Shown: one piece after another, positions 7,164 to 64,000 of the stretch | Layout of the letters: each line of letters opens with the position of its first letter | Numbering within the stretch: the first letter of the stretch is position 1 | NCBI RefSeq assembly: GCF_014252955.1 | Contig: NZ_JACMIA010000001.1 | Span: forward strand, 4,402,001-4,466,000 | Direction of reading: 5' to 3' | DNA length: 64,000 nt | DNA from: Stappia sp. 28M-7 | GTDB lineage: Bacteria > Pseudomonadota > Alphaproteobacteria > Rhizobiales > Stappiaceae | Program-made: the position numbers and the translations under genes | The notes under the pieces: generated by a model | What the model saw: the letters and a program-made list of their open reading frames with translations, nothing else | What the model was told of the DNA's origin: nothing | Databases searched by the model: none

Positions 7164-7232
7164 TCAAGAACCCTCGCCCACCCGGAATGGCGGACAACCG
7201 GGGCAGTCTGCCTCTCACCCACTGAGGGCACC

Positions 7233-7280: not shown

Positions 7281-7313
7281 GAGGGAGCCGCCGTCTTACC
7301 CTCACCCTCAACC

Positions 7314-7370: not shown

Positions 7371-7502
7371 TACGACACGCTGGCCGAGCCGCGCACTCCG
7401 GTGTCCCCCCGAGAAAGAGATGAGGGGGAGATGTCGGCGCAGCCGACAGAGGGGGGTGAGCAGCACCAGCGACAGAGCGCACCCCGACCGCCGGGGCTCT
7501 CC

Positions 7503-7553
7503 GGTCCCGGATCTTCGGCCTCCGGCCTCGTCCGGGAAGACGCGAGGAGAGGC
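7503..7553 (-). repeat. interspersed palindromic repeat, copy R4
   Basis: This reverse-oriented unit is similar to R3. The visible arms are CCGGATCTTCGGCCTCCGG and CCTCGTCCGGGAAGACG on the plus strand. It lies just downstream of the allantoicase stop codon. Confidence 0.55.
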
Positions 7554-7581
7554 ATTCGCACTAGCCTCAGCGGCGCCCCCC

Positions 7582-8595: not shown

Positions 8596-8694
8596 GACAG
8601 GGGTCCTTCAGGCTAAGGCGCGCAGGCGGCGCGCCGAAAAGGCAGACAAGGGCGCACAAACAGCGCGCCGGAAAGAGCGACCGGAAAACCCGGC

Positions 8695-9237: not shown

Positions 9238-9287
9238 GGATGGATCTCCGGATGGGTTCGTCTATTGGTAATGCAAAACAATGACCC

Positions 9288-9314
9288 TCTCTTTCAAATT
9301 TTTCTTGAAAGAGA
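9288..9314. promoter_or_regulatory. inverted repeat upstream of uraD, possible LysR operator
   Basis: The arms TCTCTTTCAA (9288-9297) and TTGAAAGAGA (9305-9314) are perfect reverse complements around a 7-base centre. The core TCAA-N7-TTGA (9294-9308) occurs again in the lysR-puuD intergenic region at 10565-10579. It could bind the LysR regulator, or it could be a hairpin in the leader. The binding role is inferred. Confidence 0.5.
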
Positions 9315-9381
9315 TGTCCGCCGCGACGGGGCTTGCGGACCTGCGCAAAACGCTCCCAGAAGCGCCCCGCACTTGTCCCCG

Positions 9382-9465
9382 TTTGCGCGAAGGTGATCGG
9401 GATTTGCGACGGATTTTGCGCAGCTTTCTCGAAATCTCGCAAAATCCGTCGCAAACTCGCGCAAA
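9382..9465. repeat. nested perfect inverted repeats
   Basis: An 18-bp perfect inverted repeat has arms 9403-9420 (TTTGCGACGGATTTTGCG) and 9438-9455, with a 17-base spacer. Outside it, TTTGCGCGA (9382-9390) pairs with TCGCGCAAA (9457-9465), so the structure is nested. The region is locally rich in A and T and is not part of any supported gene. It could form a long cruciform or RNA hairpin. Confidence 0.75.
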
Positions 9466-9625
9466 TTCCGCCGATCTCCGCACGACTTTCAACCGGATTC
9501 CGGTTCTTTTCGGGGCGAACGGGGATAGATCCGGCCCGCTTTTACCCCCTACCCGGCAGAACAGCGGCCCGCGCAGCGAATTTGTGCCCGCACCGCTCCC
9601 CTCGCGCCGTGCCGCCAATCCCCCC

Positions 9626-10546
9626 TCAGTCCCCGGCAAGGGCGGCATCGACCGCCGCCTTGCAGCGCGCGGTCACGAAGTCGATGAACAGGCGGATCTT
9701 CGGGTCCTGGTAGCGCTTGTGCGGGTAAAGGCAGGCGAGTTGCACCGGCAGCGGCGGCGTCGCCCGGCAGACCTCGACCAGCCGCCCGGCCCGCAGGTGA
9801 TGCGCCACCTCGAACAGCGGCTTGTTGACGATGCCGCAGCCGGAAAGCGCCCAGTCGGTCAGCACGTCGCCGTCGTCCGATTCGAACGGCCCCGACACCT
9901 CGTGGCGCACCGGCCCGTCCGGGCCCTTCAGCGTCCAGTTGAACTCGCTGGTTCCGGGAAAGCGCAGCAACAGGCAGTGATGGCGGCCGCGCACCAGCTC
10001 CTCGCCGCTCTCCGGCGTGCCGTGGGCGGCCAGATATTCGGGCGCCGCGCACAACACCCTGGCGCAGTCGACGACGGGGCGCATCTTCAGGGCCGAATCG
10101 GCCGGCTGGCCCAGCACGAAGGCGATATCCAGCCCCTCGCCCAGCACGTCGACCTTGCGGTCGGACAGGCGCAGCCGCACGTCGATATCCGGATATTCCG
10201 CCTTGAACGCCGGGATCAGCGGCGCCACCAGCCGCCGCCCGAGGCCGAGCGGCGCGGCCACGAAGATCGAACCGCGCGGATGGCGGGCGACATCGGCCAC
10301 CGCCGCCTCCGCCTCCTCGATGGCGTCGAGGATCTTCACCGCGCCCTTGTAGAAGATCGACCCGTGCTCGGTTGGCGTCAGCTTGCGCGTCGTGCGGTTG
10401 AACAGGCGCACGCCCAGGTGCTTTTCCAGCTCGCCGATGCGGCTGGAGACCACCGCCGGCGAGACACGCTGGTCGCGCGCCGCCGCCGACATCGAACCGA
10501 GGTCGACAGCCCGCACGAAAACCCGGAGATTGTTCACGTAGGACAT
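9626..10546 (-). CDS. LysR family transcriptional regulator
   Basis: This is a 306-residue LysR-type regulator. The winged helix-turn-helix spans about residues 5-62 (SMSAAARDQRVSPAVVSSR, then LGVRLFNRTTRKLTPTEHG), and a substrate-binding domain follows from about residue 90. It is transcribed divergently from puuD with 210 bases between the starts, the usual layout for a LysR gene and its target. With uraD and allantoicase downstream on its own strand, it most likely controls urate use. The effector is not known, though urate or a breakdown product is a sensible guess. Confidence 0.88.
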   Translation of the reverse strand: MSYVNNLRVFVRAVDLGSMSAAARDQRVSPAVVSSRIGELEKHLGVRLFNRTTRKLTPTEHGSIFYKGAVKILDAIEEAEAAVADVARHPRGSIFVAAPLGLGRRLVAPLIPAFKAEYPDIDVRLRLSDRKVDVLGEGLDIAFVLGQPADSALKMRPVVDCARVLCAAPEYLAAHGTPESGEELVRGRHHCLLLRFPGTSEFNWTLKGPDGPVRHEVSGPFESDDGDVLTDWALSGCGIVNKPLFEVAHHLRAGRLVEVCRATPPLPVQLACLYPHKRYQDPKIRLFIDFVTARCKAAVDAALAGD

Positions 10547-10564
10547 GGACGGCTCTTATCATTT

Positions 10565-10579
10565 TCAAGAAATTCTTGA
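10565..10579. promoter_or_regulatory. dyad between lysR and puuD, possible LysR operator
   Basis: TCAAGAAATTCTTGA is a 7-bp perfect inverted repeat around one base, 19 bases upstream of the lysR start. It matches the uraD-upstream element in the frame TCAA-N7-TTGA and also shares TTCTTGA. The position suits autoregulation and control of puuD. Binding is inferred. Confidence 0.5.
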
Positions 10580-10756
10580 TAGTGATCGAAGCGCCTCGCG
10601 ACTTTTTTGCAAATGACGGATCTGTCAATCTCGCGCGAAATCCGGCAGCGCGGCCCGCGGACGGTTGGCACGTTTCGTGATTGGACTTTGCGCCGGGCGG
10701 GCGCGGACCCGTCGGGTGTCCGCCGCACCTTGAGTGCCCCAAGGAGGGAGAGAGTG

Positions 10757-11989
10757 ATGGAAGTGGCTATCGCCTGGGACTGGCTGGCCTTCGCCTTGCG
10801 CTGGCTGCATGTGGTGACGGCCATCGCCTGGATCGGCTCGTCCTTCTACTTCATCGCCCTCGATCTGGGCTTGCGCAAGGCGCCCGACCTGCCCGCTGGC
10901 GCCCATGGCGAGGAATGGCAGGTCCATGGCGGCGGCTTCTACCATATCCGCAAGTATCTGGTGGCACCCGCCACCCTTCCCGAGCACCTGACCTGGTTCA
11001 AGTGGGAGAGCTACGCCACCTGGCTTTCGGGCTTCGCGCTGATGTGCGTCGTCTACTATGCCGGCGCCGATCTCTACATGATCGACCCGTCCGTCATGGA
11101 GCTGTCGCGGCTCGGCGCCATTGCGCTGTCCATCGCCTCCATCGCCTTCGGCTGGATCGTCTACGACCTCCTGTGCCGCTCGCCGCTGGGGCGCAGCACC
11201 ACCGGGCTGATGCTCCTGCTCTACGTGGTGCTGGTCGCCATGGCCTGGGGCTACACCCAGGTCTTCACGGGCCGCGCCGCCTTCCTGCATCTGGGCGCCT
11301 TCACCGCGACCATCATGTCGGCCAACGTCTTCATGATCATCATCCCCAACCAGAAGAAGGTGGTCGCCGCGCTTCTGGCCGGGAAGACGCCGGACCCGGC
11401 GCTCGGGGCCCAGGCCAAGCAGCGCTCGCTGCACAACAATTACCTCACTCTCCCCGTCGTCTTTTTGATGCTGTCCAATCATTATCCCCTGGCCTTCGCC
11501 ACGCAGTACAATTGGGCGATCGCCTCGCTGGTTTTCCTGATGGGCGTCACGATCCGACACTTCTTCAACAGCACCCACGCCCGCAAGGATGCGCCGTGGT
11601 GGACCTGGTTCGTCACCGCCGCTCTCTTCCTCGCCGTCGTCTGGCTGTCGACCCTGCGTCCCGGCGACGAAGCCAGTGAAACCGCGCAGAGCTATCGCCG
11701 GCTGCCGCCGCAGATCGCCCGCTTCGTCAATGACGAGCATTTCGAGGCGGCCCGCGACACGGTGCTGACGCGCTGCTCGATGTGCCATGCGGCCGAGCCG
11801 CTGTGGGAGGGAATGGCGGCGGCACCCAAGGGCGTGCGGCTGGAAAGCGACGCGGAAATCGCCGAGCACGCCCGCGAGATCTACCTGCAGGCCGGCATTA
11901 CCCACGCCATGCCGCCGGCCAACGTGACCTATATCGAGCCGGACGAGCGCGCCGTTCTCGCCGCCTGGTATCGCAGCGCCACCCGCTGA
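10757..11989 (+). CDS. puuD: urate hydroxylase PuuD, membrane protein with C-terminal cytochrome c domain
   Basis: I start this 410-residue protein at ATG 10757, preceded by AAGGAGGG at 10741-10748. The upstream extension is not needed. The N-terminal part has about eight hydrophobic segments, beginning with ALRWLHVVTAIAWIGSSFYF, as in the PuuD/COG3748 membrane family. The C-terminus is a c-type cytochrome domain with heme site CSMCH at 340-344. The family oxidises urate to 5-hydroxyisourate and feeds electrons to the respiratory chain, replacing soluble uricase. The divergent LysR gene and the uraD/allantoicase pair fit this. The heme attachment would depend on a Ccm system, part of which lies at 31.5 kb. 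Confidence 0.9.
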   Translation: MEVAIAWDWLAFALRWLHVVTAIAWIGSSFYFIALDLGLRKAPDLPAGAHGEEWQVHGGGFYHIRKYLVAPATLPEHLTWFKWESYATWLSGFALMCVVYYAGADLYMIDPSVMELSRLGAIALSIASIAFGWIVYDLLCRSPLGRSTTGLMLLLYVVLVAMAWGYTQVFTGRAAFLHLGAFTATIMSANVFMIIIPNQKKVVAALLAGKTPDPALGAQAKQRSLHNNYLTLPVVFLMLSNHYPLAFATQYNWAIASLVFLMGVTIRHFFNSTHARKDAPWWTWFVTAALFLAVVWLSTLRPGDEASETAQSYRRLPPQIARFVNDEHFEAARDTVLTRCSMCHAAEPLWEGMAAAPKGVRLESDAEIAEHAREIYLQAGITHAMPPANVTYIEPDERAVLAAWYRSATR

Positions 11990-12203
11990 CCGGCCGCCTG
12001 CCGGCTGTGCACTTGCCCGAAAGACGAGCAATCTGTCCCCGCCCGGTGGATTGCCGGCCCGTTTCGTATTAAGAAGATCCCATCATCAACAGGGATCCGC
12101 TCTGGCCGAAACGTCATCGACGTTCTTCGGCGCGCCGACGTATTTTTCATACGGAATATCGCGATGCGCGGGTCCCGAACCTGACGGGAGGGACGACAGC
12201 ACG

Positions 12204-13214
12204 ATGACGGTTCTGACAGAGGCCGAGGAAATCTCGGATATCGCCTTCGGCTACATGGGATCGAAGGCGCTGTTCGCCGCGCTCCACTTCGGGGTCTTCA
12301 CCGAGCTGGACGAAGGCCCGGCCTCCGCCGACGATCTCGCCCCCAGGATCGGCCTGCCGCGGGAACGCTGCCGCACCCTGATGACCGCCCTCACCTCGCT
12401 CGGACTGACCGAGATCCGGGACGGGCGCTACGCCAATTCCCCCGCCGCCGAGCGGTTCCTGGTCAAGGGCGCCCGCTACGACTTCGGCGACTACCTGCGC
12501 CTTCAGGTCGGCCAGCAGATGTACCCGTTGATGGACCAGATCGAGCCCGCACTGGCCGGCGAACTGCCGGAGGAGGCAACCGCCTCCTATGACGACTGGT
12601 TCTCCGACCCGGAGGAAGCCCGCCTTTATTCCGAGAGCCAGCATGCCGGCTCGCTCGGCCCGGCGCGCGGCCTTGCCAAGCGGGTCGACCTTTCGGCGGC
12701 GCGCAGCCTGCTCGATATCGGCGGAGGCACCGGCGCCTTTGCCATCACCTTGTGCAAGGCCTTCCCGCAATTGTCCGCAACGCTCGTCGAGTTTCCCAAT
12801 GTCGCGGATATCGGCGAAGGCTTCGTCGCCCGCGCGGGCCTTTCAGAGCGCATCACCTATCGGCGCGGAAACGCACTGGACGCCGACTGGCCGACGGGAC
12901 AGGACGCGGTGCTGATGTCCTATCTCCTGTCCGGCGTGCCGGATCATGCTCATGAGGATCTGTTCGCCCGTGCCTTCGCGCATCTGGCGCCGGGCGGCCA
13001 GCTGATGATCCACGACTTCGTCGTCGATGCCGACCGCAAGGGCCCGCGCAACACCGCCCTGTGGCAGTTGCAGCACACCGCCTTCACGCCCGAAGCCCGC
13101 TCGATCGCCGACGACTGGCTGGCCAAGCGCCTTGCCGCCGCCGGCTTCACCGATGTCTCGGTCGAGCCGCTCATCCCCGGCATGACCAAGCTGGCACTGG
13201 GGCGGCGCCCCTGA
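12204..13214 (+). CDS. SAM-dependent O-methyltransferase with dimerisation domain
   Basis: I start this 336-residue enzyme at ATG 12204, which has GGGAGGGA a few bases upstream. The N-terminal 90 residues form the winged-helix dimerisation domain seen in plant-type and antibiotic O-methyltransferases (ALHFGVFTELDEG). The C-terminal Rossmann part has the SAM motif LLDIGGGTGAFAI at about 168-180 and GQLMIHDF later. Relatives methylate hydroxyls on small aromatic or polyketide-like compounds, and some are annotated as acetylserotonin methyltransferase-like. No biosynthetic partners are adjacent, so the substrate is unknown. Confidence 0.82.
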   Translation: MTVLTEAEEISDIAFGYMGSKALFAALHFGVFTELDEGPASADDLAPRIGLPRERCRTLMTALTSLGLTEIRDGRYANSPAAERFLVKGARYDFGDYLRLQVGQQMYPLMDQIEPALAGELPEEATASYDDWFSDPEEARLYSESQHAGSLGPARGLAKRVDLSAARSLLDIGGGTGAFAITLCKAFPQLSATLVEFPNVADIGEGFVARAGLSERITYRRGNALDADWPTGQDAVLMSYLLSGVPDHAHEDLFARAFAHLAPGGQLMIHDFVVDADRKGPRNTALWQLQHTAFTPEARSIADDWLAKRLAAAGFTDVSVEPLIPGMTKLALGRRP

Positions 13215-13382
13215 CCTGACCCGCTCAGCTCCGACGCCACCCCAAGGGCGATGCAAGCCTGCAACAGGGTGGCGCAAGCCGGTCACATTGCCGCGAAATC
13301 GCTTCGCGGTAACGGATCCGTCAGTTAAACCGGAGTATAGAAGACTAGATACAGACCGATTTCCGGAGCCGGCTGGACCGTC

Positions 13383-14210
13383 ATGCGCAAGAACACCTTC
13401 CTTTCCGCCCTCACCGCCGCCGCCCTTGTGGCCGGTGCGAGCCTCGCTGCTCCGGCAGCCCTTGCCCAGGACGGCATGGCAGCGCCGCAGGACATGCCCC
13501 TGCCCTCCCGGCAGTACGTCATCGACCTCGGCGTCGGCGCGCTGGTCTCGCCGAAATACGAAGGCGCGGACAAGATGATGGTCTCGCCGCTGCCGATCAT
13601 CTCGGTCGGCCGGTTCTACGTGCCGGGCCTCGGCCAGGTCAGCGACGGCGAGAAGACCACCCGCGGCGTCTTCTTCTTCCCCTCGTTCAACTTCGTGGGC
13701 GAGCGCAAGGCCTCCGACAGCGCCAAGCTGACCGGTACCAACAAGGTCGACTGGGCGCTGGAACTCGGCCTCGGCGCCGGCTTCCGCTACGACTGGTTCA
13801 GCGCCTTCGTCGAGCTGCGCCAGGGCATCAACGGCCACACGGGTCAGGTCGGCCAGATCGGTGCCGACATCATCCTGAACCCGATGGAACGGCTGGAAAT
13901 CGCCTTCGGCCCGCGTGCCGACTTCGCCAGCGGCGACTACATGAGCACCTATTTCGGCGTCACCCCTGCCGAGGCGGCCGCCTCGCTGGGCAACCTGACC
14001 GCCTACAAGGCCAGCGGCGGCTTCAAGTCGATCGGCCTGTCGGGCCGCGCCAGCTATGCGGTCACGGACCAGACAGCACTGCACCTGCAGGCCGGCTGGG
14101 ACCACTATGTGGGCGACGCCCGCAACAGCCCGATCGTCCGCCGTGGCAACCAGAACAATTTCACCATCGGCACCGGCGTCACCTACCGCTTCTCCTTCGA
14201 TCTGTTCTGA
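13383..14210 (+). CDS. MipA/OmpV family outer membrane protein
   Basis: This 275-residue protein has a clear signal peptide, with likely cleavage after APAALA at residue 28. The mature part begins with a short linker and then YVIDLGVGALVSPKYEGAD, the typical MipA/OmpV start. It is rich in alternating strands and ends with a terminal phenylalanine (TYRFSFDLF), the usual outer-membrane barrel signal. MipA in E. coli scaffolds peptidoglycan enzymes and OmpV is a porin-like protein; the role here is open. The 60 bases upstream are AT-rich compared with the surroundings and probably hold the promoter. Confidence 0.85.
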   Translation: MRKNTFLSALTAAALVAGASLAAPAALAQDGMAAPQDMPLPSRQYVIDLGVGALVSPKYEGADKMMVSPLPIISVGRFYVPGLGQVSDGEKTTRGVFFFPSFNFVGERKASDSAKLTGTNKVDWALELGLGAGFRYDWFSAFVELRQGINGHTGQVGQIGADIILNPMERLEIAFGPRADFASGDYMSTYFGVTPAEAAASLGNLTAYKASGGFKSIGLSGRASYAVTDQTALHLQAGWDHYVGDARNSPIVRRGNQNNFTIGTGVTYRFSFDLF

Positions 14211-14249
14211 TCGCCGCCCCGGTCGCAAGGACAGGCCGGCGGCATCGAC

Positions 14250-14912
14250 ATGACAGGCGAGCAGCGCATTCCCGTGCGGATCGACGACGAGGACGACCTC
14301 GCCGCCGGTCTCGGCCAACTTCTGGCCATTGCGCCCGATCTCGGCCGCCTTGCCGCGGCCGGCGATCCCCTGCCGCTGCGCCGCCATCCCGCGACCTTTG
14401 CCGAGCTTGCCCGCATCGTCACCGCACAGCAGGTGTCGCTGGCGAGCGCCGCCGCGATCTACGGTCGGCTTGAAGCGCTGATTTCCCCCTTCGACGCGGC
14501 GACCGTCCTGCGCCTGAGCGATGACCAGCTCGGCCAGGCAGGTCTGTCGCGCGCCAAGATCGCCGCTTTCCGGGCGGTGGCGCAGGCCGTCGACGATGGC
14601 CTCGACCTTGCGGACCTGACGCGCCTGCCGGCGGAGGACGCCCGCACCCGCCTCGTCTCCCTGCGCGGCATCGGCCCATGGACGGCGGATGTCTTTCTGC
14701 TGTTCTGCGCCGGGCACCCGGATGTGTTTCCCGCCGGCGATGTCGCCCTGCAGGAAGCCCTGCGCGACGCCCTTGCGCTGGATGTGCGGCCGAACCCGCG
14801 CGAGGCGGAACGGCTGGCCCGGCGCTGGTCGCCCTGGCGCGGTGTCGCGGCGCGGCTTCTATGGGCGCATTATCGCCGCCTCACCGGGCGCGGGACCGGC
14901 CTCCCGGTCTGA
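14250..14912 (+). CDS. DNA-3-methyladenine glycosylase, AlkA/HhH-GPD type
   Basis: This 220-residue base-excision repair glycosylase removes alkylated purines. The helix-hairpin-helix is at about 135-150 (LVSLRGIGPWTADVFL), and the catalytic aspartate is Asp164 in FPAGDVALQ, as in AlkA. It lacks the N-terminal TBP-like domain of E. coli AlkA and is closer to the short Mag1-like form. The gene starts 39 bases after MipA/OmpV and converges with the YkvA gene, whose stop codon begins at the next base. Confidence 0.88.
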   Translation: MTGEQRIPVRIDDEDDLAAGLGQLLAIAPDLGRLAAAGDPLPLRRHPATFAELARIVTAQQVSLASAAAIYGRLEALISPFDAATVLRLSDDQLGQAGLSRAKIAAFRAVAQAVDDGLDLADLTRLPAEDARTRLVSLRGIGPWTADVFLLFCAGHPDVFPAGDVALQEALRDALALDVRPNPREAERLARRWSPWRGVAARLLWAHYRRLTGRGTGLPV

Positions 14913-15323
14913 TCAAACCGAACCGGGCTTGCCCGCCCTGCCGTCGTCGGCGGCCTCTGTCTTGCCGAGCGCGGCGCGCGCCGCCTCCCTGTGCTCCTCG
15001 CGCATATGGCTGCCGATCAGGGCCAGCACGCCGAGCAGGATACTGGCATCGTCCGTGAAACCGATGCCGAGGATGGCGTCGGGAATGATGTCGAAGGGCA
15101 TGACGAAATAGGCAAGGCCGGCGAAGATCGTGCCGCGCACGCGCACGGGCGTGGCCGGATCGACGGCGCAAATATAGGCGGCGATCACATCCTCCATGAA
15201 GGGGATCTGCCGCGCCGCCTTGCGCGCCACCTTGAAGAGGCGCGCGCCGACCCGCTCCTCGCGGCCCTTCTCGGGGCCGAGGATTTCCGGATCGATGCCG
15301 AGATCGTCGTAACTTGCCGCCAT
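14913..15323 (-). CDS. YkvA family (DUF1232) small membrane protein
   Basis: This 136-residue protein contains the YkvA/DUF1232 core: IPFMEDVIAAYICAVDPATP, then FVMPFDIIPDAI and the DDASILLGVL segment. The PxDxIPD motif is the family mark. These are short proteins with one or two hydrophobic stretches and no known biochemical role. The gene directly abuts the convergent AlkA-like gene and is downstream of purH on the same strand, from which it is separated by two hairpins. Confidence 0.85.
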   Translation of the reverse strand: MAASYDDLGIDPEILGPEKGREERVGARLFKVARKAARQIPFMEDVIAAYICAVDPATPVRVRGTIFAGLAYFVMPFDIIPDAILGIGFTDDASILLGVLALIGSHMREEHREAARAALGKTEAADDGRAGKPGSV

Positions 15324-15409
15324 GCCTGCCGTCTCCTTGCCGGACCTTGCGAAGGTCCCGCGGACAGCCCCCGGGCGGGCCGAAATGACCCGCTTTCTAC
15401 CCCATATCT

Positions 15410-15454
15410 GGGCCGAAACGGCCCGCGCCCGCCCCTTATGTGGGGCGGGCGCGG
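15410..15454 (-). terminator. tandem hairpins downstream of purH
   Basis: A 13-bp perfect GC-rich stem has arms 15423-15435 and 15442-15454 and a TTATGT loop. The smaller stem GGGCC-GAAAC-GGCCC at 15410-15424 shares its edge. The site lies between the purH stop and the ykvA start. There is no long T-run, so termination strength is uncertain. Confidence 0.5.
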
Positions 15455-15509
15455 TGGATTTTCAAAGAGGCGGGCGAAGGGGCCTGGGGCAGGCGCCCTT
15501 TGCAAACCG

Positions 15510-17126
15510 TCAGTGACGGAAGTGACGCATGCCGGTGAAGACCATGGCGAGCCCGGCCTCGTCGGCCGCCGCGATCACTTCCGCATCGCGCATCGAGCCG
15601 CCCGGCTGGATCACCGCCGTGGCGCCGGCGGCAGCCGCCGCCAGAAGGCCGTCTGCGAAGGGGAAGAAGGCATCGGACGCCACGACCGAGCCGATGGTGT
15701 TCGGCCGGGCGGCACCTGCCGCCTCCGCCGCGTCCTCGGCCTTGCGCGCGGCGATGCGGGCGCTGTCGATGCGGCTCATCTGGCCCGCGCCGATGCCGGC
15801 GGTCGCGCCCTCGCGCACATAGACGATGGCGTTCGACTTGACGTGCTTGGCGACGCGGAAGGCGAACTTGAGGTCGGCCATTTCCTGCTCGGTCGGGGCG
15901 CGCTTCGTCACCACCTTGAGGTCGAGATCCTCGACCGTGCCGGTGTCGCGGTCCTGCACCAGCAGGCCGCCGGCAACCGACTTGACGATACGTGCGCCGG
16001 CGCGCGGATCGGCGAGCCCGCCGGTGATCAGCAGGCGCAGATTCTTCTTCGCCGCCACGATCGCCAGCGCCTCGTCGCTGGCCTCCGGCGCGATGATCAC
16101 CTCGGTGAAGATCTTGACGATCTCCTCGGCCGCGGCCGCGTCCAGCTTGCTGTTGAGCGCGACGATACCGCCGAAGGCCGAAACCGGATCGCAGGCCAGG
16201 GCCTTCAGATAGGCGTCCTTGAGGCTCGCGCCCGTCGCCACGCCGCAGGGGTTGGCGTGCTTGATGATGGCGACCGCCGGCGACACGCCCGGATCGAACT
16301 CGCTGACCAGCTCGAACGCGGCATCGGTGTCGTTGATGTTGTTGTAGGACAGCTCCTTGCCCTGCACCTGGCGGGCGGTGGCAACGCCGAAGCGGCGCTC
16401 CGGCGTCAGGTAGAACGCCGCCTTCTGATGCGGGTTCTCGCCGTAGCGCATGACCGACGCGAGACGTCCGCCGAAGGCCACATGGGCCGGCGCGTCCTCG
16501 CCGATGGCGGCGGCGAACCAGTTGGAAACCGCCGCGTCATAGGCCGCGGTGCGGGCGAAGGCCTTCTGCGCCAGACGCTTGCGCAGCGCCAGCGGCACTT
16601 GCCCCTCGTGCTCGCCGAGCGCCTCGATCACCTCGGAATAGTCGGCCGGATCGCTGACCATCGTCACATAGGCGTGGTTCTTGGCCGCGGCGCGGGTCAT
16701 TGCCGGGCCGCCGATGTCGATGTTCTCGATGGCGAGCGCGAAGTCGGCGCCGGAAGCGACCGTTTCCTCGAAGGGATAGAGATTGACGCAGACGAGGTCG
16801 ATGCCGGTGATGCCGTGCTCCTTCATCGCCGCGGCGTGTTCGGCATCGTCGCGGATGGCGAGCAACCCGCCATGCACGGCCGGATGCAGCGTCTTGACGC
16901 GCCCGTCCATGATCTCGGGAAAGCCGGTGACCTCCGAAATGTCGAGCACCTTCAGCCCGGCGTCAGCCAGCGTCTTGCGCGTACCGCCGGTCGAGACCAG
17001 CTCGACGCCGAGCCCTGCAAGCGCGGTCGCGAACTCGATGAGGCCTGTCTTGTCGGAGACGGAGAGCAGGGCGCGCCTGACGGGAACGAGATCGGGAACG
17101 GGAATGCGTTTCGACACCACGGCCAT
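15510..17126 (-). CDS. purH: bifunctional AICAR transformylase / IMP cyclohydrolase
   Basis: This 538-residue enzyme carries out the last two steps of de novo IMP synthesis in the cytoplasm. I start it at the internal ATG 17126 ([13 protein letters not shown]). The longer frame would add 18 residues outside the conserved start. The N-terminal IMP cyclohydrolase domain has [12 protein letters not shown] and STGGTRKTL. The transformylase half has the catalytic Lys-His in KHANPCGVA near residue 288. It is preceded on the same strand by rsmB and a heparinase-family gene, an order common in Rhizobiales. Confidence 0.96.
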
Positions 17127-56429: not shown

Positions 56430-57602
56430 ATGCCGCATCTCGACTTCATGACCCTTTATATTCTGGTGTTTCTCAACTCGCTCGCGGTGACCGCGGTGTG
56501 GGCGGGATTCGCCTGGATGTACCGCCCGTACCCGGCGGCCCGCTACTGGCTCGCCGGGACGCTAATGACCCTGCTGGGCGGTCTCGTGCTGGCGACACAG
56601 GGCAACGCGGGGGCGCTGGTGCCCGCCGTCCTGGGCAACACCATCGTCATTTTCGGCTTCATGCAGTTCTGGATCGGCTTGCGGCGCTTTGCCGGCCAGC
56701 CCGGCGGACAGACCGTTGCCGTCGCCTTCTCGCTGCTCGCCGCAGCAGCGATGATCGCCCTGCACGACAGCGACCGCGGCCGCGCCATCGTCTATGCCTC
56801 CGGCCAGTCCATTGTGATGCTGACCTGCCTCTTCCAGCTGCTGCGTCGCCGCATCTCCGGCATCGGCACGGTGATTGCGGCCGTCGCCTTCACGGTGGCG
56901 CTCACCGGCCAGTTCCTCGTCGTCGCCTCGAACGGCGCGGTCCTCGCCGGCGCGCTGGACTACAAGATCTATTACGCGCTCGCCTCCTACGCCCTGCTCT
57001 GCACGGTCTTCAGCGCCACCGTGTGGAACCTCGGCTTTGCCCTGATGGCCGTCGACAGTCTTCACCGGCAGCTGAGGGGCCTTTCGGAAACGGATGCGCT
57101 GACGGGCCTGGCCAATCGCCGCGCCTTCGCCGCGCGCGCGGACCAGCTACAGCAGCAGGCGGACACCCTTCCCTGGTGCCTGATCCTGATCGACCTCAAC
57201 GACTTCAAGCCGCTCAACGACCGCTTCGGCCATCTTGCCGGCGACGGCGCGCTGAAGCATTTCGGTCAGGTCCTGGTGTCTTGCGCGCGGCCCGGCGATC
57301 TGGTGGCGCGCCTTGGCGGCGACGAGTTCGCCCTGCTGCTCCCCGACACCGCCCTTGCACAGGCCGCCGCTCTGGCGCAGACGATCCGCCGCAAGGTGGC
57401 CTCCTCTCCCTTCTCACTCGGCAAGGACAGCGTGCCGATGTCGGCCGCGATCGGCGTTGCAGGGTCGCAAGAGGAAACGGCGGGCCACGACCGACTGTTC
57501 TCTCTCGCCGACGCACGCCTTTACCAGGACAAGACGGCCTCGAAGGGCGACCAGCGCCCGCGTTCCGGGCAACTGTGGCTGCAGCTGGCCACGCAAGGCT
57601 AG
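56430..57602 (+). CDS. membrane-bound diguanylate cyclase (GGDEF)
   Basis: This 390-residue inner-membrane enzyme makes cyclic di-GMP. About six hydrophobic segments occupy residues 7-205, with no recognisable ligand-binding motif. The GGDEF domain begins around DALTGLANRRAFAAR (about residue 222), and the active-site motif GGDEF lies near residue 295. I see no RxxD inhibitory site before GGDEF and no EAL partner domain, so it is probably an active synthase. It converges with the TPR/acyltransferase gene with only five bases between the stops. Confidence 0.93.
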   Translation: MPHLDFMTLYILVFLNSLAVTAVWAGFAWMYRPYPAARYWLAGTLMTLLGGLVLATQGNAGALVPAVLGNTIVIFGFMQFWIGLRRFAGQPGGQTVAVAFSLLAAAAMIALHDSDRGRAIVYASGQSIVMLTCLFQLLRRRISGIGTVIAAVAFTVALTGQFLVVASNGAVLAGALDYKIYYALASYALLCTVFSATVWNLGFALMAVDSLHRQLRGLSETDALTGLANRRAFAARADQLQQQADTLPWCLILIDLNDFKPLNDRFGHLAGDGALKHFGQVLVSCARPGDLVARLGGDEFALLLPDTALAQAAALAQTIRRKVASSPFSLGKDSVPMSAAIGVAGSQEETAGHDRLFSLADARLYQDKTASKGDQRPRSGQLWLQLATQG

Positions 57603-57607: not shown

Positions 57608-60532
57608 TCATTCCGGTTCGTGTCGGGCGAGGCGGAGATCGCCCTGCTTCAGCATCAGATAGCGGTACATGACCGAGGAGAAATTCTGGTTGTCCGCGCC
57701 CGATGTCATCACGCCGGCGAGCAGGTCGAGATAGTCCTGCGCCCAGCGCGCGGACCATGTCGCGGTATCCTCTTCCGGCAAGGGGCCGGCCATGCGCCGC
57801 ACGTCGACCCGCACCTCCGTGCCCGAGCGCAGGGCCTGCAGCCAGTAGATCGGCACCCCCAGCGCCTGGGCGACCTTCGGCACGGTGTCGAGCAGCGTGC
57901 AGCTCACCCCGAACAGGGTGCCGACCGCCTCGCTCCTGAAACCGACCTTCGTGTTGGCCTCGGCGGGAAAATCGGGGATGGAGAAGACGCTCATCCCCCC
58001 TTTCAGGAATTTGACGATCCGTGCCGCAGCCAGGCGGTCTGTCATCTGAATGACCTGGTAGCGGCTGTTCAGCTCCTCGTGACGGGTCGCCGAGCTCAAC
58101 AGGAACGCGGTATTCCGGAAATAGCTCTCGCGAAGAACCACGTTGCCCTGTCCCTGATGCGTTCCGACGATCAGCGTGGGAACGCGCGACCGCATGCGGT
58201 CTTCCAGCTCGGCATAGGTGTCGGTCCGCTCGAATGCCAGTTCGATCTCGGGATGCACATTGCGCAAGCCTATGACCCGCTGGACGTAGGTCGCGCGCTG
58301 CGCGCGGGCGAGCCACGCTTGCCTGTCGCCATCGCCCTTGCCCTGCAGCTGCCATGCGATCTGCCCGGCGGTCGACGGCAGTGCTGGTTCGGCCAGCCCC
58401 TGCTCCGCAGCCTCGATCAGGTCGCAGACATCCTCGCCGCTCATCGGTCGATAAAGGGGATAGGCCGGGATAGTCAGCTGGCCCAGATCGTCGTGATGGC
58501 CCAGGAAATGCCTCAAAAGCGCGATGGCATTGGAAGAACCCGGCGCGCGACCGTCCGCCCGGCTGGCGATCAGCGCGGGGAGCACCTCCGGACAGTTCAT
58601 CATCCGCAAGTCGCACAGCATCCAGGATTCGAGAGTCAGGGCGCCGGAGCAGACCTGCTCGACAAGAAACGCCGCCCCGCCCTTTGTATCGCCGAGCGCG
58701 AGGAACAGGGCATAACGCAGCTTCAATCCCGCCTCATGGACAGGATGATGCGCCAGCACGGCCTCGGTCGTCGCCAGCGCCCTGTCGAGCCGGCCCGTTT
58801 CGAATTCTGCCCGCGCCTTCAGCACCGACAGCTGGATATCGCGGGGCGACTGGCCACAGGCGCGTCCGGTGCGCTCCGCCAGCTCTGCCCACGCGCAGGT
58901 TCCCATGGCGACCTGCGCCCGCAACACGTCGAGCGTGAAGTCGGGAAACCGGCTCTCGGACTCGGCCAGTAGGTGCTCGAGCCTTGCCATGACCGCCCGC
59001 GACGGCGCCGTCCCGAAGCCCCACCGCCCCGCGGCCGAGACCAGCTTCCTGACATGTTCCAGAAGCGAGGGGGCGTGCCTTGCATCCTCGATCAGGAGAT
59101 CGGCGAACGCCTCGATCTCCCCGAGCGTCAGATGCAGATGAGCCAGCGCCCGCCTGACGGCTGTGTGGCCCTTCAACTCGTCGGAAAGTCCGGCGACAAA
59201 GGCTTCCGCCTCCCCGATGCGCTCGGCGTTGACCAGTTCGTTCAGGACCAGTGCCGCTCCCTCCGGCGATGCCGGGTCGTCCTTCCAGAGCCCAAGCATC
59301 CTTGCATGGGCGACCTCGTGACGGCCCTCGCTGCGCAGCAGGCGGATCTCCAGCCGCTGCAGCGCCGGGGTGAGCTCGCCCCTCGCGATCTGCTCGTCCA
59401 GCCGGTTCCGCGCGCGTTCGAAGCGGCGCAGGTCGAGATCCAGCCCGATCCGCAGGTCGGCGTGTTGGTGACGCGAGGCGGACAGCACCGCCTCCATATC
59501 CGTCATATCGCCCGCCGGCCATAACGTCAGCACCTTTTGCCGGACGAGCCCCTCGTCGTCCGGCCAGCGGGCCAGCGCCCCGTCGCACAGCCGGAGCGCC
59601 GCCGTATGGTCGAGGGCGAGGCGCTCCAGCCCTATCGCCTGGAACACGGCATCGCGATTGTCGGGCGCCTCCCTCAGCGCCGCCCGCGCGGCCTCGAGCG
59701 CGGCCCGCGTCGCCCCCGTGTCGGCGAGACAGCGGGACGCCTCCACGTGCAACCTCGCCCGGTCCTGCGGCTTGAGCCCATCCGGCCTTGCCAGGATCCG
59801 CTCGACGATGGCCAGCGCCTGCAAGGGATCTGCGGCCCGGCGCAGCGCCACCGCATGGCGCAGCTCTGCCTGCCACTCGGCCGGGTGCTTTTGCGCGAGC
59901 ACGGCACCGGCCCTGGCGGCCGCCGCGAAATCCTTCATCTGCGTCAGGATTTCGACCCGGGCATAGAGGGCCGGCTTGTGCGCCGGATCGACCGCGAGGA
60001 TCTCCTCGGCCAGCGCCAGGCTTTGCGCATGCGCGCCGTGCCACAGCAGCGACAGGGAGAGCTCATGTTTGATCGAAAGGTGGTCCGGATGGCGCCGCAA
60101 GGCCTCGCTCAGCTGGCGAATGCTCTCCTCCACGCGCCGGCTCTGGCGCAAGGCCGCGCCCTGCTTGGCAAGCACGGCCGGATCGCCGGGAAAGCGCGCC
60201 AGCATCTGTCCGGCCGCCTCCAGCGCCGCATCGAACTCCCGCGCCTGCATGAAGGTATCGATCCTGGCATGAAGTGCCGGCCGGTGTGTCGGATCGGCCG
60301 CAAGGATCTCCTCCACCAGCGCCAGGCTTTGCGCATGCTTGCCCTGCCAGCGCAGGGACAGCGCCAGCTCGTACCTGATCGCGAGATTGCCTGGATGGCG
60401 TCCCAGGGCATCGGACAGATACCGGACGCTCTCCTCCACGCGCCGGCCCTGCCGCAGCGCGATGCCTTTGCTGATGACCGCTGCCGGGTCGTCGTCCGCC
60501 TCCCTCCCTGCAGCCTCTGACATGTCTGACAT
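57608..60532 (-). CDS. TPR repeat protein with LpxL-like acyltransferase segment
   Basis: This 974-residue protein starts at ATG 60532, 29 bases after the carbamoyltransferase stop. Residues 21-122 and 123-206 form a tandem duplication (RRVEES at 31 and 132) of TPR-like helices, and more helical repeats continue to about residue 650. The C-terminus resembles the LpxL/HtrB lysophospholipid acyltransferase fold: TLIVGTHQGQGNVV (His792), FLKGGMSVFSIPDFP, TLFGVSCTLLDTVPKVAQALGVPIY. In the HX4(D/E) motif the acidic residue appears to be Asn797, so activity is doubtful or unusual. There is no signal peptide or membrane segment. With an ACP and carbamoyltransferase in the same run, acyl transfer from ACP is an attractive guess. 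Confidence 0.65.
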   Translation of the reverse strand: MSDMSEAAGREADDDPAAVISKGIALRQGRRVEESVRYLSDALGRHPGNLAIRYELALSLRWQGKHAQSLALVEEILAADPTHRPALHARIDTFMQAREFDAALEAAGQMLARFPGDPAVLAKQGAALRQSRRVEESIRQLSEALRRHPDHLSIKHELSLSLLWHGAHAQSLALAEEILAVDPAHKPALYARVEILTQMKDFAAAARAGAVLAQKHPAEWQAELRHAVALRRAADPLQALAIVERILARPDGLKPQDRARLHVEASRCLADTGATRAALEAARAALREAPDNRDAVFQAIGLERLALDHTAALRLCDGALARWPDDEGLVRQKVLTLWPAGDMTDMEAVLSASRHQHADLRIGLDLDLRRFERARNRLDEQIARGELTPALQRLEIRLLRSEGRHEVAHARMLGLWKDDPASPEGAALVLNELVNAERIGEAEAFVAGLSDELKGHTAVRRALAHLHLTLGEIEAFADLLIEDARHAPSLLEHVRKLVSAAGRWGFGTAPSRAVMARLEHLLAESESRFPDFTLDVLRAQVAMGTCAWAELAERTGRACGQSPRDIQLSVLKARAEFETGRLDRALATTEAVLAHHPVHEAGLKLRYALFLALGDTKGGAAFLVEQVCSGALTLESWMLCDLRMMNCPEVLPALIASRADGRAPGSSNAIALLRHFLGHHDDLGQLTIPAYPLYRPMSGEDVCDLIEAAEQGLAEPALPSTAGQIAWQLQGKGDGDRQAWLARAQRATYVQRVIGLRNVHPEIELAFERTDTYAELEDRMRSRVPTLIVGTHQGQGNVVLRESYFRNTAFLLSSATRHEELNSRYQVIQMTDRLAAARIVKFLKGGMSVFSIPDFPAEANTKVGFRSEAVGTLFGVSCTLLDTVPKVAQALGVPIYWLQALRSGTEVRVDVRRMAGPLPEEDTATWSARWAQDYLDLLAGVMTSGADNQNFSSVMYRYLMLKQGDLRLARHEPE
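59915..60472 (-). repeat. in-gene tandem duplication of a TPR-like block
   Basis: Two protein blocks of about 102 residues match closely. Shared segments are GRRVEESVRYLSDALGRHP and SRRVEESIRQLSEALRRHP, then HAQSLALVEEILAADPTHRP and HAQSLALAEEILAVDPAHKP. The period in DNA is 306 bases. This suggests a recent internal duplication. Confidence 0.75.
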
Positions 60533-60561
60533 GAGCGACTTCTTGGTTTGGCTATCGCAGC

Positions 60562-62250
60562 TCAGCTCGCCGCGGTCTTCTCGATGAGCAGGTCCTCGAT
60601 CACCAGCGCATCGATCCCCGAGGTCACGAAGACCGCCAGCGCATCCTCCGGCGAATGAATGATGGGCTTGCCCATGATGTTGAAGCTCGTGTTCAGGACG
60701 ACGGGAACGCCGGTCCGCTCGCCGAAGCGCCGCACCAGCTTGTGCATCCAGGGCCCGGTACGGGGGGAGACCGTCTGCAGACGGCCGGTCCCGTCCGCGT
60801 GGACGACCGCCGGCACCTGCGCGGCCTTCTCGCCGCGCCAGCGCAGGGTGATCGACATGTATGGCGAGGGTTGGGCGCTCTCGAACCACTCCGCGACATC
60901 CTCCTCGCACAACACCGGAGCGAAGGGCCGATAGGGCTCGCGGCCCTTCACCAGCCGGTTGATACGGTCCTTCATGTCGGCGGGGCGGGGATCCGCCAGG
61001 ATCGAGCGATTGCCGAGGGCGCGCGGACCGAACTCCGCCCGCCCGCGCATGACGCCGACGATCTTTCCCTCGGCCAGCAGCTCCGCGACCCTGTCCTCGC
61101 CGTTCATCGAGACATCGCTCACCCGCGCGATGCCGCGAAGGTTCTCCAGTCTGGATACTGCGTCCGGCGTTGCGGCCGATCCCAGATAGGGCGTGGCCGG
61201 CAGGACGGGCACCCGGCTCGTCTCCGCCGTGTCCATCCAGCTCAAAAGCGCCGCACCGACGGCGTTGCCGTCGTCCGCCGGGGCCGGTGGCACGAACAGG
61301 CGGTCGAACGGCATGCGCCCGGCGATCGTGCCGTTATAGGAGGAGTTCAGCGCGCATCCGCCGCCGAGGATGAGGTTTCCGTCGGCCCCCTCAGCCACCG
61401 CAGACAGGATCTGGTCGGCAAGGGCCGCATAGGCGGCCTGCCCGCTTGCGGCAAGGTCGGCCGCGTTCATCAACGGCGCGTCCGCCGGGCGGGCGAACTG
61501 CCGGATGCTGCCTGCAAGGGCGGCGAGCGCTTCCTTGTCCGCAAAGCGCAGGCGCCCCCGATCCACTTCCAGGAGCGCGACCATCGCATCGCGGATCTCG
61601 GGCCTGACCGTCCCGTAGGCGGCCAGCCCCATCACCTTCCACTCTTCCCCCAGCCGCCAGTCGAACCCGCACAGCTGCGTCAGCCAGGCATACAGCGTGC
61701 CCAGGCTCCCCGGCCCCCACGAGCGCCACCGGCGCTTGAGCACCCGGCCGCGAAGATCGAACATCGAAACCGCGCCGGCCTCGCCCTCCCCGTCGACGAT
61801 CAGGCAGGATGCGGTGTCGACCGGTGCGAAGGCGCTGGCCGTCACCGCGTGGCACAGGTGGTGATCGTAGCGCCGCACCTCGGGCATCTGCCGCGCGATC
61901 CCCAGTCTCAGGAGCGAGGCACCCGCATGGGTGTTGATGCCGGCATGCAGTTCCCGCAGCCAGAGGGCATCCGTCACGGGCAGCAACTCGCCCATCAGCT
62001 CGACCGGCAGGTCCGCCTTGATCCGTTGCCAGGACGTGGCCACGGCCAGGCTGTCTGAGCCGAAATCGAAACCGACCTGGGTCAGGGCGGATTCAAGGTG
62101 CGGCACATGATCGGGCGTGATGCCCCAGGCCCGTTTGTCCTGTACGAAACGTTCCGTTGCCTCGGCGAAGAGAAGATTTCCATCGGCATCGACGATCGCC
62201 AGCGCCGGGTCATGCCCGGATGTCGAAAGCCCGAGGTGGAACAGCGCCAT
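60562..62250 (-). CDS. O-carbamoyltransferase (NodU/CmcH family)
   Basis: This 562-residue enzyme has the two-part NodU/TobZ layout. The Kae1/YrdC-linked N-terminal domain starts LGLSTSGHDPALAIVD and has YDHHLCHA, LGGGCALN and SYNGT. The C-terminal domain carries FGPRALGNRSILADPR and VPVVLNTSFNIMGKP. The family makes carbamoyl adenylate from carbamoyl phosphate and ATP, then transfers carbamoyl to a hydroxyl on a sugar, polyketide or other small molecule. The ACP stop shares its last A with this start codon (TGATG), so translation is coupled. The acceptor may be an ACP-bound or sugar hydroxyl, but this is inferred. Confidence 0.9.
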   Translation of the reverse strand: MALFHLGLSTSGHDPALAIVDADGNLLFAEATERFVQDKRAWGITPDHVPHLESALTQVGFDFGSDSLAVATSWQRIKADLPVELMGELLPVTDALWLRELHAGINTHAGASLLRLGIARQMPEVRRYDHHLCHAVTASAFAPVDTASCLIVDGEGEAGAVSMFDLRGRVLKRRWRSWGPGSLGTLYAWLTQLCGFDWRLGEEWKVMGLAAYGTVRPEIRDAMVALLEVDRGRLRFADKEALAALAGSIRQFARPADAPLMNAADLAASGQAAYAALADQILSAVAEGADGNLILGGGCALNSSYNGTIAGRMPFDRLFVPPAPADDGNAVGAALLSWMDTAETSRVPVLPATPYLGSAATPDAVSRLENLRGIARVSDVSMNGEDRVAELLAEGKIVGVMRGRAEFGPRALGNRSILADPRPADMKDRINRLVKGREPYRPFAPVLCEEDVAEWFESAQPSPYMSITLRWRGEKAAQVPAVVHADGTGRLQTVSPRTGPWMHKLVRRFGERTGVPVVLNTSFNIMGKPIIHSPEDALAVFVTSGIDALVIEDLLIEKTAAS

Positions 62251-62501
62251 CAGGAACCCGCGCGCTTCAGGATGGAGCGTGCGAACTCGCCGAGCGTGTC
62301 GTGCTGGAAGATATCGGCCGGGTCCACCTCCACGTCGAAGCGATCTTCCACCTCGCCGCAGACCAGCACCGCATCGATCGACTGCAGCCCCAGATCCGCG
62401 AGCGACATCTCCATCCGGATATCGTCTACCGAGGTCTTGGTGCGCTGCGCGACCCTCTCGCGAAGAAACGAGAAAAACTGGGACTCGTCTATTTCAGTCA
62501 T
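62250..62501 (-). CDS. acyl carrier protein
   Basis: This is an 83-residue stand-alone carrier protein. The phosphopantetheine site is DLGLQSIDAV, with Ser41, and the flanking helices match the ACP fold (FFSFLRERVAQRTKTSVDDI, then FDVEVDPADIFQHDTLGEFA). It is not the housekeeping AcpP, which is more acidic and differs in sequence. It overlaps the P450 gene by eight bases and is translationally coupled to the carbamoyltransferase. The pattern is typical of a carrier for tethered intermediates in a small secondary pathway. Confidence 0.9.
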   Translation of the reverse strand: MTEIDESQFFSFLRERVAQRTKTSVDDIRMEMSLADLGLQSIDAVLVCGEVEDRFDVEVDPADIFQHDTLGEFARSILKRAGS

Positions 62502-64000
62502 CTTGATGCTCTGTTCTTCTGAAAACGCACGGAAGCGTGCTGAGGGCGACGGTTTCCGACATGGGGTGGTAACGATGCGCCTGCGTAACCAGCGCCATGT
62601 CGGGAAAGGTCTGGAGGAGTGAGGGAATGGCGCGCTTGAGGACCATCACCGAAAGGGCCGCGCCGACGCAGCGATGCAGCCCCTTGCCGAACGAGACATG
62701 CCCGTTGCCGCCCGGGGTCTGCCGGTTCAGCACGCGGATGTTCAGCCGCGCCGTGTCGCCGGCCTTCATTGCCATCTCGCTGAGCGTCAGGTCGGCGCGG
62801 GCAACGCGGTAGATGAACTTCGGCCCGCTGCAACGCGCGACCAGTTCGTCGATATTCGCCTCGACCCACGCCGGATCGCCTGCCGCCGCCCGTTCCTCGG
62901 GAGGGAGCGAGAGGATCCACAGCAAGGCATTGGACAGCGTGTGGGACAGGTTGAAGCTCGCGCCGTAGAGCACCAGCACCACGGCCTTGAGATCCGCTTC
63001 GTCGAACCCGTCCGGCGCCTCGGCGACCAGGGCCTCCAGCAGCGAGGGCGGACCGTCGGAGGCGACGGGCACCTCCATCAGCGACAGCGCCTCGGCGAAG
63101 ACCGCTTGGACGCGCCGCAGGTTCCGCATCGAAAGCCAGGGCTCCAGCACGTCCTGCAGGTGCGGCGCGATGGCGTCGAACCTGTGCGGATCGCGGCTGG
63201 AGATGCCGAGGATGCGCATCATCGTGCTCTTGCGCAGCGGATCGGAATAGCCCGAGACCAGATCCGGCGACGCCACCGCCGACAGGGCGCGCAGCGTCTC
63301 GTCCAGCGCCCCGTCGACGACACCCTGCCAGAGGGGCAGCTGCGCGGTGCCGAGGAAGCGCATCAGCGCCTGTTTCAGCGCTTCGTGCCGCGGCCCGTCC
63401 ATGAAGAACAGCGCGTTGCGCGCGATCCTCGTCGCGTCCCCCAGATCCTCGCCGCTCGCCTGCGACAGCAGCGCGAGGTGGCTTTCCATCGGCGGCGGGG
63501 CAAAGGCCTCGTTGTCCCGCAAGACCCGGTGCGCGCTGGCCATGTCGCGGATGTCGCAAAGACGCGCGCTCACCCGCCGGGACCGCTTGTCGATGTCGCA
63601 CGGCAGGGCCGTCGGGGCCTGCATCATCGGCGTGACCACGAACCGGCACTCGTCGGTCTTCAGGACGATATCGGGAAAGGACCGCGCCAGGGCGGGCAAG
63701 GCGGTTTCGATCAGCATCTCGCTGAGAAACACTCCGGGACACTTGTGCGCGCCGCTGCCGAAGCTCATGTGGCTTTGGCGCGTGCCCTGGCTGGCCCGCA
63801 ACCGGCTGTTGGCCGCCACGATATCGACCACGGCGGACTCGCCCTGGCGATAGGGACAGCCGGCGACTTCGGTCGCCTCGCTCGCGACGCGCACCAGCGT
63901 GCGGGTGGACTGGTAGAGCCCCAGGATCTCCTGGGTGTGCCGCGCGCCCCATCCGGGCTTGCCGGCCTCGGCCCACAGATCAGCCGGACCGCTCAGCAAT
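62494..64000 (-). CDS. tandem cytochrome P450-like domain protein (5' end outside window)
   Basis: The frame is open through the right edge, so at least the 501 last residues are visible. Two heme-thiolate loops lie in the same frame: FGSGAHKCPG (Cys87 counted from position 63999) and FGKGLHRCVG (Cys444). The first domain is cut at its N-terminus. The second runs from about residue 140 to the end and has a C-helix segment FFMDGPRHEALKQALMRF and an I-helix YGASFNLSHTLSNALL. In both domains the ExxR arginine seems absent (EILG and ELVA) and the meander is very short. P450s usually hydroxylate or cyclise carbon frames, with carrier-bound substrates being common. The divergence makes the chemistry uncertain. 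Confidence 0.75.
   Translation of the reverse strand, partial: LLSGPADLWAEAGKPGWGARHTQEILGLYQSTRTLVRVASEATEVAGCPYRQGESAVVDIVAANSRLRASQGTRQSHMSFGSGAHKCPGVFLSEMLIETALPALARSFPDIVLKTDECRFVVTPMMQAPTALPCDIDKRSRRVSARLCDIRDMASAHRVLRDNEAFAPPPMESHLALLSQASGEDLGDATRIARNALFFMDGPRHEALKQALMRFLGTAQLPLWQGVVDGALDETLRALSAVASPDLVSGYSDPLRKSTMMRILGISSRDPHRFDAIAPHLQDVLEPWLSMRNLRRVQAVFAEALSLMEVPVASDGPPSLLEALVAEAPDGFDEADLKAVVLVLYGASFNLSHTLSNALLWILSLPPEERAAAGDPAWVEANIDELVARCSGPKFIYRVARADLTLSEMAMKAGDTARLNIRVLNRQTPGGNGHVSFGKGLHRCVGAALSVMVLKRAIPSLLQTFPDMALVTQAHRYHPMSETVALSTLPCVFRRTEHQDD

Follow-up and report, generated by a model that had tools for sequence, protein, structure and literature searches.

A six-gene cassette of Alphaproteobacteria predicted to tailor a carrier-bound acid for one of three alternative terminal enzymes

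We analysed a stretch of 64,000 nucleotides from Stappia sp. 28M-7 (contig NZ_JACMIA010000001.1; G000:C1:4402001-4466000, here called the window) together with the contig beyond its position 64000, where the window edge cuts through a minus-strand operon. This operon holds six genes which in order of transcription encode a putative B12-binding radical SAM protein, a fatty acyl-AMP ligase (FAAL), a tandem-fused double cytochrome P450, a discrete acyl carrier protein (ACP), an O-carbamoyltransferase and a protein with TPR repeats followed by a putative LpxM-like acyltransferase domain. We consider it probable, at roughly 60%, that these genes form a cassette in which a carrier-bound acid is loaded, tailored and then transferred or released by a terminal enzyme. 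The evidence that carries this reading is a core conserved between loci and a terminal gene exchanged between three types.

The distribution of the core was assessed by scanning alignment A1 of the double P450 against the genome contigs of 84,980 species. The scan relied on two short peptide patterns and the number of loci recovered is therefore a lower limit. Some P450 relative was found in 229 stretches and the best 80 of the 229 were kept. In the first 25 (L033-L057) the match extended over the double protein completely or for the most part, with 35-84% identity; the other 55 contained P450 matches of about 0.9-1.2 kb with at most 29% identity, all in Actinomycetota. The 25 double-P450 loci come from 24 genomes, as Rhodobacter sp. 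NTK016B has two, and all are from Alphaproteobacteria (12 Rhodobacterales, 8 Hyphomicrobiales, 3 Caulobacterales, 1 Sphingomonadales and 1 without an order). Genes for the ACP and the carbamoyltransferase were detected downstream of the double P450 at all 25 loci (the L045 copies are broken by frameshifts or stops), indicating that these three genes are together by more than chance. A FAAL gene was present upstream at 23 loci, the exceptions being L040 and L045. A radical SAM gene was found within 17 loci, and a search of the genomes of the other eight recovered a homologue for three more, which brings the count to 20. Of these three additional genes one is the copy in the same genome's other cassette (L035) and one is a genomic homologue distant from any recognised cassette gene. 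The third is on a separate 3.3-kb Xinfangfangia contig together with a thioesterase-like gene and the beginning of a FAAL gene, in keeping with a FAAL gene that is truncated in L038. Two more copies of the cassette were found on plasmids, pSC52_1 and a plasmid of Phaeobacter sp. G2. Among 151 relatives of the Stappia strain the double P450 scored above 500 bits in 9, and these same 9 were the only ones of 87 family genomes to exceed 600 bits for the cassette carbamoyltransferase subfamily, with the remaining matches at 285 bits or less. This subfamily was present in 4 of 14 Stappia genomes. The initial annotation of the window had proposed a set of P450, ACP, carbamoyltransferase and TPR-acyltransferase, and had looked to conserved co-occurrence of all four and to further upstream enzymes for support. 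The first three families bore this out and the FAAL and radical SAM genes are such upstream enzymes, while the TPR-acyltransferase proved to be one of three alternatives, found at 9 of the 25 loci. Neither of the outcomes that it had named as refuting, homologues that are never neighbours and a well-known cluster with a defined product, emerged from these data.

Neighbour clustering and Pfam scans identified the three terminal types as the LpxM-like TPR-acyltransferase, an MBOAT protein and a thioesterase-like protein with a Cys nucleophile. Using tblastn, with queries that included the loci's own proteins and with L038 counted via its separate contig, we assigned the TPR-acyltransferase to 9 loci, the MBOAT to 8, the thioesterase-like protein to 6 (one via L137) and none to 2. 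Brevundimonas and Roseovarius are examples of the MBOAT type and Roseibium is one of the thioesterase-like type. Exactly one terminal type was present at 23 of the 25 loci and two types at none. Random re-dealing of the labels, which ignores kinship, resulted in a mean of 11.2 loci with exactly one type, and 23 was not reached in any of 20,000 rounds. The MBOAT gene was directly 3' of the carbamoyltransferase gene in 8/8 cases and its His residues were kept in all eight; the Pfam MBOAT score was barely above cut-off in the two proteins tested. At these 8 of the 25 loci, which do not include the cassette of the window itself, an MBOAT, a carrier and an adenylating enzyme are encoded in one operon. 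An extra protein was encoded 3' of the MBOAT in L023, L036, L037, L046 and L054, with an SGNH-like D-x-x-H-F motif in 5/5 and an IGTS motif in 3/5. The two sequences read by eye have an N-terminal membrane anchor, and the one tested against Pfam gave no match. The thioesterase-like type is alpha/beta-hydrolase-like and related to the thioesterases of nonribosomal peptide synthetases (NRPS); Pfam Thioesterase was above cut-off in L056, and the other four tested gave no Pfam match at all. The motif is GGNCQG, in which Cys replaces the usual Ser (9/9).

The history of these exchanges was followed on a carbamoyltransferase tree of 29 rows, a quick tree with two long branches flagged, from which L045 was left out and which also takes in L002, L023, L024, L028 and L029 from outside the 25 loci. 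The tree required 7 changes among the three types, or 6 if L049 with its remnant is set aside. Treating 'none' as a fourth label raised the number to 8, as compared to a shuffled mean of 15.1, and the starred branches force 5, 3 and 3 for the respective types. Terminal types are thus clustered by descent, yet the core changed partners several times. The presence of one terminal type at a time together with repeated swaps is the strongest evidence that the three enzymes have the same final function.

The limits of the cassette in Stappia could be read from a second Stappia genome (G006), which has an empty site. At this locus (L135) the two flanks meet, window position 57606 corresponding to base 11239 and position 68054 to base 11236, and 9 bases lie between the stop of a GGDEF-motif gene (56430-57602 in the 28M-7 copy) and the stop of an EamA gene. 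The missing segment is exactly window 57607-68053 and contains the six genes and about 0.1 kb upstream, demonstrating that the unit is a 10.4-kb cassette of six genes. This comparison is compatible with gain or loss of the cassette alike. The EamA transporter was considered as a seventh member and rejected, as it is present in the cassette-free G006 and was recognised beside the cassette in Stappia loci only. Stappia indica (L025) was also compared to window 57601-69100. Identity reached about 94-99% in EamA and in the radical SAM gene. It was mostly 81-93% from the FAAL gene through the carbamoyltransferase gene and 69-87% for the greater part of the last gene, dropping further where the TPR repeats fail to align; this mosaic suggests recombination within the cassette.

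Several copies are altered. The copy L045/L031 of a Breoghania metagenome-assembled genome (MAG) is decaying, with frameshifts or stops in several genes, assembly error being possible for MAGs. The Breoghania MAG (G027; L022 and L132, G027:C24:264029-268458) also has on another contig a 285-bit carbamoyltransferase piece of 53% identity and, some 3 kb from it, a fragment of a P450; the two probably represent a second cassette in decay. L049 is a decaying copy with a DDE transposase gene beside a TPR-acyltransferase remnant. In L029 (G072; 5842-16207) the cassette is partly doubled, in the order radical SAM, FAAL remnant, double P450 and ACP, then thioesterase-like gene, FAAL, short P450 piece, ACP and carbamoyltransferase. 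The two cassettes of Rhodobacter sp. NTK016B (L035 and L040) have different end modules and L040 has neither FAAL nor radical SAM gene nearby; it may borrow both.

In 28M-7 all six genes are on the minus strand and closely spaced. The radical SAM gene (L002:10378-11937) and the FAAL gene (L002:8665-10353) lie beyond position 64000 of the window. The double P450 gene occupies L002:6494-8668, which is window 62494-64668 with 62494-64000 inside the window and its far end at G000:C1:4466668, and is overlapped by the FAAL gene by 4 bases. Its stop (62494) and the start of the ACP gene (62250-62501) overlap by 8 bases, the ACP and carbamoyltransferase (60562-62250) genes share base 62250, and a 29-base gap (60533-60561) precedes the ATG of the last gene at 60532 (57608-60532). 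The last three of these junctions had been given in the initial annotation for four coupled genes and are exact. It had also placed the start of the operon outside the window, which agrees with a P450 running to 64668 and two more genes upstream, and the four-gene set it described has to be replaced by six.

The double P450 is 724 residues long in all. The first half (in-window part 63574-64000) has its haem Cys310 codon at 63739-63741 and the second half (62497-63573) has its haem Cys667 codon at 62668-62670. Both halves matched P450 chains in a sequence search of the PDB, and the Pfam p450 match (E 5e-9) was a single stretch at the Cys loop. Conservation was assessed in alignment A2, whose 27 rows leave out the frameshifted L045, L056 (halves not recovered in one open reading frame), the plasmid copies L023 and L024 and repeat fetches. 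Both haem Cys residues were invariant (27/27 each), as was the surrounding FG.G.H.C motif in both halves, in agreement with the FxxGxHxC pattern. An AlphaFold2 model built with 27 sequences (mean pLDDT 90.7) consisted of two P450-type halves, and its top ten Foldseek matches were all P450BioI with acyl-ACP (E 2e-14, TM 0.71-0.78 to the target). Aligning the first half to the second with hhalign gave E 2e-61, and in 27/27 sequences the first half scored higher against a second half than against the fetched actinobacterial P450s. The two halves are therefore nearest kin of each other among those compared, and the gene probably resulted from duplication and fusion. Neither a fused double P450 nor a pathway with this gene set, of which the initial annotation had known none, was seen described among the PMC matches listed, a library that omits most subscription journals.

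The ACP (83 residues) matched Pfam PP-binding with E 9e-14 and contains the motif GxxSxDAV, whose Ser was kept in 26/26; the predicted phosphopantetheine Ser41 has its codon at 62379-62381. The carbamoyltransferase (562 residues) matched Carbam_trans_N (8e-30) and Carbam_trans_C (2e-68), and H13, D14, H130, H131, H134, D153, E155, D326 and D327 were invariant in 25/25 aligned sequences. NovN, GdmN and TobZ were among its solved relatives in the PDB. The protein has its family and conserved residues in common with these and with NodU and forms a separate subfamily. Membership of NodU was rejected (equivalog score 165 vs a cut-off of 1000). Stappia genomes G009 and G013 (L126, L127) have a carbamoyltransferase of another subfamily (39% identity) and weak TPR-acyltransferase relatives on other contigs. 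For the FAAL the best solved relatives were FAALs matched over nearly the full length, the top ones being labelled 'polyketide synthase', and none of 25 NCBIfam models among the matches listed reached its curated cut-off. In the radical SAM protein the CxxxCxxC cysteines were kept in 17/17 and Pfam Radical_SAM was above cut-off; the B12-binding domain scored 26.6 bits, under its cut-off of 32.1. Scores against known methyltransferases and other types were all far under their cut-offs. A hopanoid enzyme was rejected on this basis (HpnJ 58 bits vs 578, HpnR 50 vs 650), and C-methylation by this protein is a guess from its family.

The last gene encodes 974 residues, as judged by its open reading frame and start, with Pfam TPR repeats in the N-terminal part and no match in the Pfam scan in the C-terminal part. 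The C-terminal domain (57611-58615) was evaluated using alignment A3 (8 rows), an AlphaFold2 model and Foldseek. His153 and Asp215 (domain numbering) were invariant. Mean pLDDT of the model was 63, with the first 120 or so residues poor; over residues 131-310 block pLDDT was 59-92 and 9 of 18 blocks were at 82 or above. The best Foldseek match was LpxM (5kn7, E 3e-8, TM 0.43-0.47) followed by mycobacterial PatA (E 3e-7), with every TM below 0.52. LpxL and LpxM use acyl-ACP. Unlike LpxM and PatA, the cassette protein is fused to TPR repeats and has no sequence match to solved members. The putative acyltransferase assignment thus rests on an LpxM fold match of a moderate-confidence model. The domain is rare, as it exceeded 400 bits in 5 of the 151 relatives, all with cassettes, and gave weak matches (134 bits or less) in 7 more, including the cassette-carrying G027 and G072. 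The TPR part has an apparent internal repeat of about 115 residues (window 59600-60560). Alignment of the copies from other Stappia to this part begins at residue 115-117 or occurs twice, indicating that repeat number varies between strains.

Taken together the protein families support what the initial annotation had deduced from them, namely oxidation of a carrier-bound group, O-carbamoylation and acyl transfer from the ACP as the predicted steps; the lipid, glycolipid or small amide that it named are candidate products. The FAAL would adenylate a carboxylic acid and load it onto the dedicated ACP. The double P450, whose best fold match is an acyl-ACP-acting enzyme, would then oxidise the bound chain, and the carbamoyltransferase, judging by its family and intact residues, would place an O-carbamate on a new or existing hydroxyl. 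The radical SAM enzyme may add a further step, most likely C-methylation. Removal of the completed acyl group from the ACP would then fall to the terminal enzyme. The one in Stappia, the TPR-LpxM-like acyltransferase, would move the group, probably onto a membrane lipid or glycolipid; at other loci transfer would be carried out by the MBOAT, in several cases with the SGNH-like partner as in Dlt-type envelope acylation, or by the Cys-nucleophile thioesterase-like enzyme.

Parts of this scheme resemble known systems. JamABC (terminal alkyne) and isonitrile lipopeptide clusters are FAAL-ACP-oxidase building-block cassettes and, like the cassette described here, combine a FAAL, a stand-alone ACP and an oxidising enzyme acting on a carrier-bound acid. 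The cassette differs in its carbamoyltransferase, in a double P450 in place of a desaturase or non-haem oxidase, and in the absence of an NRPS among its six genes. P450BioI, which acts in pimeloyl-ACP formation, binds fatty acyl-ACP and provided the ten best fold matches; unlike it the cassette P450 is two fused halves with ExxR nearly lost and an altered I-helix, and sequence does not single out BioI. The Dlt pathway (DltA-DltC-DltB-DltD) D-alanylates teichoic acid, which Gram-negatives are not known to possess, and in it DltB receives the acyl group carried by DltC. With this pathway the MBOAT type of the cassette shares an adenylating enzyme, a small carrier, an MBOAT and an SGNH partner. 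It differs in that the acyl group would apparently be oxidised and carbamoylated on the carrier and in that Stappia has an LpxM-like enzyme, not an MBOAT. DltA loads the DltC carrier (PMC13231372) and MBOAT-SGNH pairs acylate envelope polymers (PMC12148441). We tentatively suggest, as an idea of clearly lower probability than the carrier reading itself, that the cassette is a Gram-negative counterpart of Dlt and would carry out a so far undescribed modification of the envelope or of membrane lipids. An ACP-bound acid would be remodelled by a near-ExxR-less tandem P450 with non-canonical haem chemistry, O-carbamoylated, possibly C-methylated and moved to a lipid or glycan by one of three unrelated interchangeable enzymes.

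A number of observations weigh against the carrier-bound pathway. L040 lacks a FAAL gene at its locus, and no radical SAM gene was found in the genomes of 5 of the 25 loci, indicating that the core can do without the latter. Of the nine loci assigned a TPR-acyltransferase, two (L045, L049) hold remnants only, and two Rhodovulum loci (L041, L044) have no adjacent terminal module, with a weak TPR-acyltransferase relative about 18 kb downstream on the same contig. The acyltransferase model is moderate in confidence, when taken whole superposes poorly on LpxM (rmsd 9-13) and represents a domain with no PDB sequence match. The Foldseek BioI match of the P450 covers one half, the output not giving which. 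In the profile search BioI came second, with its match on the first half, below nocardicin N-oxygenase and no more than 2 bits from ten further entries. A search with the second half alone ranked it 13th, behind several Oxy-type P450s; that list was headed by CYP107X1 and by glycopeptide Oxy P450s, whose substrates are carrier-bound peptides. A complete ExxR was present in one of 27 first halves (Sphingopyxis) and in none of 27 second halves (1/54 overall), with the register verified in the first half alone, by means of the BioI profile alignment. At the Arg position there was Gly, Ser or Leu in 23/27 first halves and Ala, Ser, Pro or Gly in 27/27 second halves. The usual P450 I-helix motif is (A/G)Gx(E/D)T. 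First halves had Ser or Thr at the oxygen-activating position in 26/27; second halves had YGA[SG]FN in 27/27, with Phe where the oxygen-activating Thr is expected, and so lack the acid-alcohol pair. With ExxR nearly gone and this pair missing, ordinary hydroxylation is not assured, and ordinary monooxygenation by the second half in particular is doubtful from its motifs.

This leaves a reading that is compatible with the carrier pathway and with the alternatives below, in which one or both P450 halves are a scaffold or have another haem activity (peroxygenase, isomerase or dehydratase). Besides the lost motifs, the absence of a redox partner gene among the six and a resemblance to the P450-derived glycosyltransferase activator family are in its favour; the resemblance amounts to 77 bits, far under the 343-bit cut-off, and with the haem Cys intact membership of that family was rejected. 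The haem Cys and FG.G.H.C motif are invariant in both halves, and CYP157 is an example of a P450 without ExxR (PMC3599690), which suggests that loss of ExxR is no bar to a haem enzyme. We regard a non-oxygenase role as possible, though short of an even chance.

A second alternative is that the product is a diffusible small molecule such as a signal, antibiotic or metallophore, with the terminal enzyme either joining the carbamoylated acyl group to a small alcohol or amine or freeing it as an acid or lactone. FAAL, ACP, P450 and carbamoyltransferase genes are typical of secondary metabolism, and the thioesterase-like protein of 6/25 loci with its Cys nucleophile, the patchy distribution (including within Stappia) and the two plasmid copies all fit such a product. 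Against this, known MBOAT and LpxM-like enzymes use membrane or envelope acceptors (PMC12148441 for MBOAT), and no further family was seen to recur beside the core among the matches listed, most unlabelled neighbours not having been domain-scanned. We consider a small diffusible product rather unlikely. Delivery of the tailored acid on its ACP to an NRPS or polyketide synthase (PKS) elsewhere, with the terminal enzymes as unrelated neighbours, could draw on the carrier domain fused to the thioesterase-like protein in Methylorubrum (L056:4230-6251) and on module swapping that mirrors varied downstream pathways, but is very improbable given the single terminal module at 23/25 loci, its inclusion within the limits of the Stappia cassette and the lack, beyond the L056 carrier and thioesterase, of any NRPS or PKS domain in 19 scanned neighbour proteins, which make up a minor portion of the flanking genes.

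The cassette described here is bounded and portable and extends over at least four orders of Alphaproteobacteria. If the carrier-bound reading is true it would offer ready access to acyl groups that are both oxidised and carbamoylated, and would represent a natural experiment in which one core was repeatedly fitted with different transferases. It makes testable both the role of ExxR-less P450s on acyl-ACP and the decoration of Gram-negative lipids or glycans with carbamoylated acyl groups.

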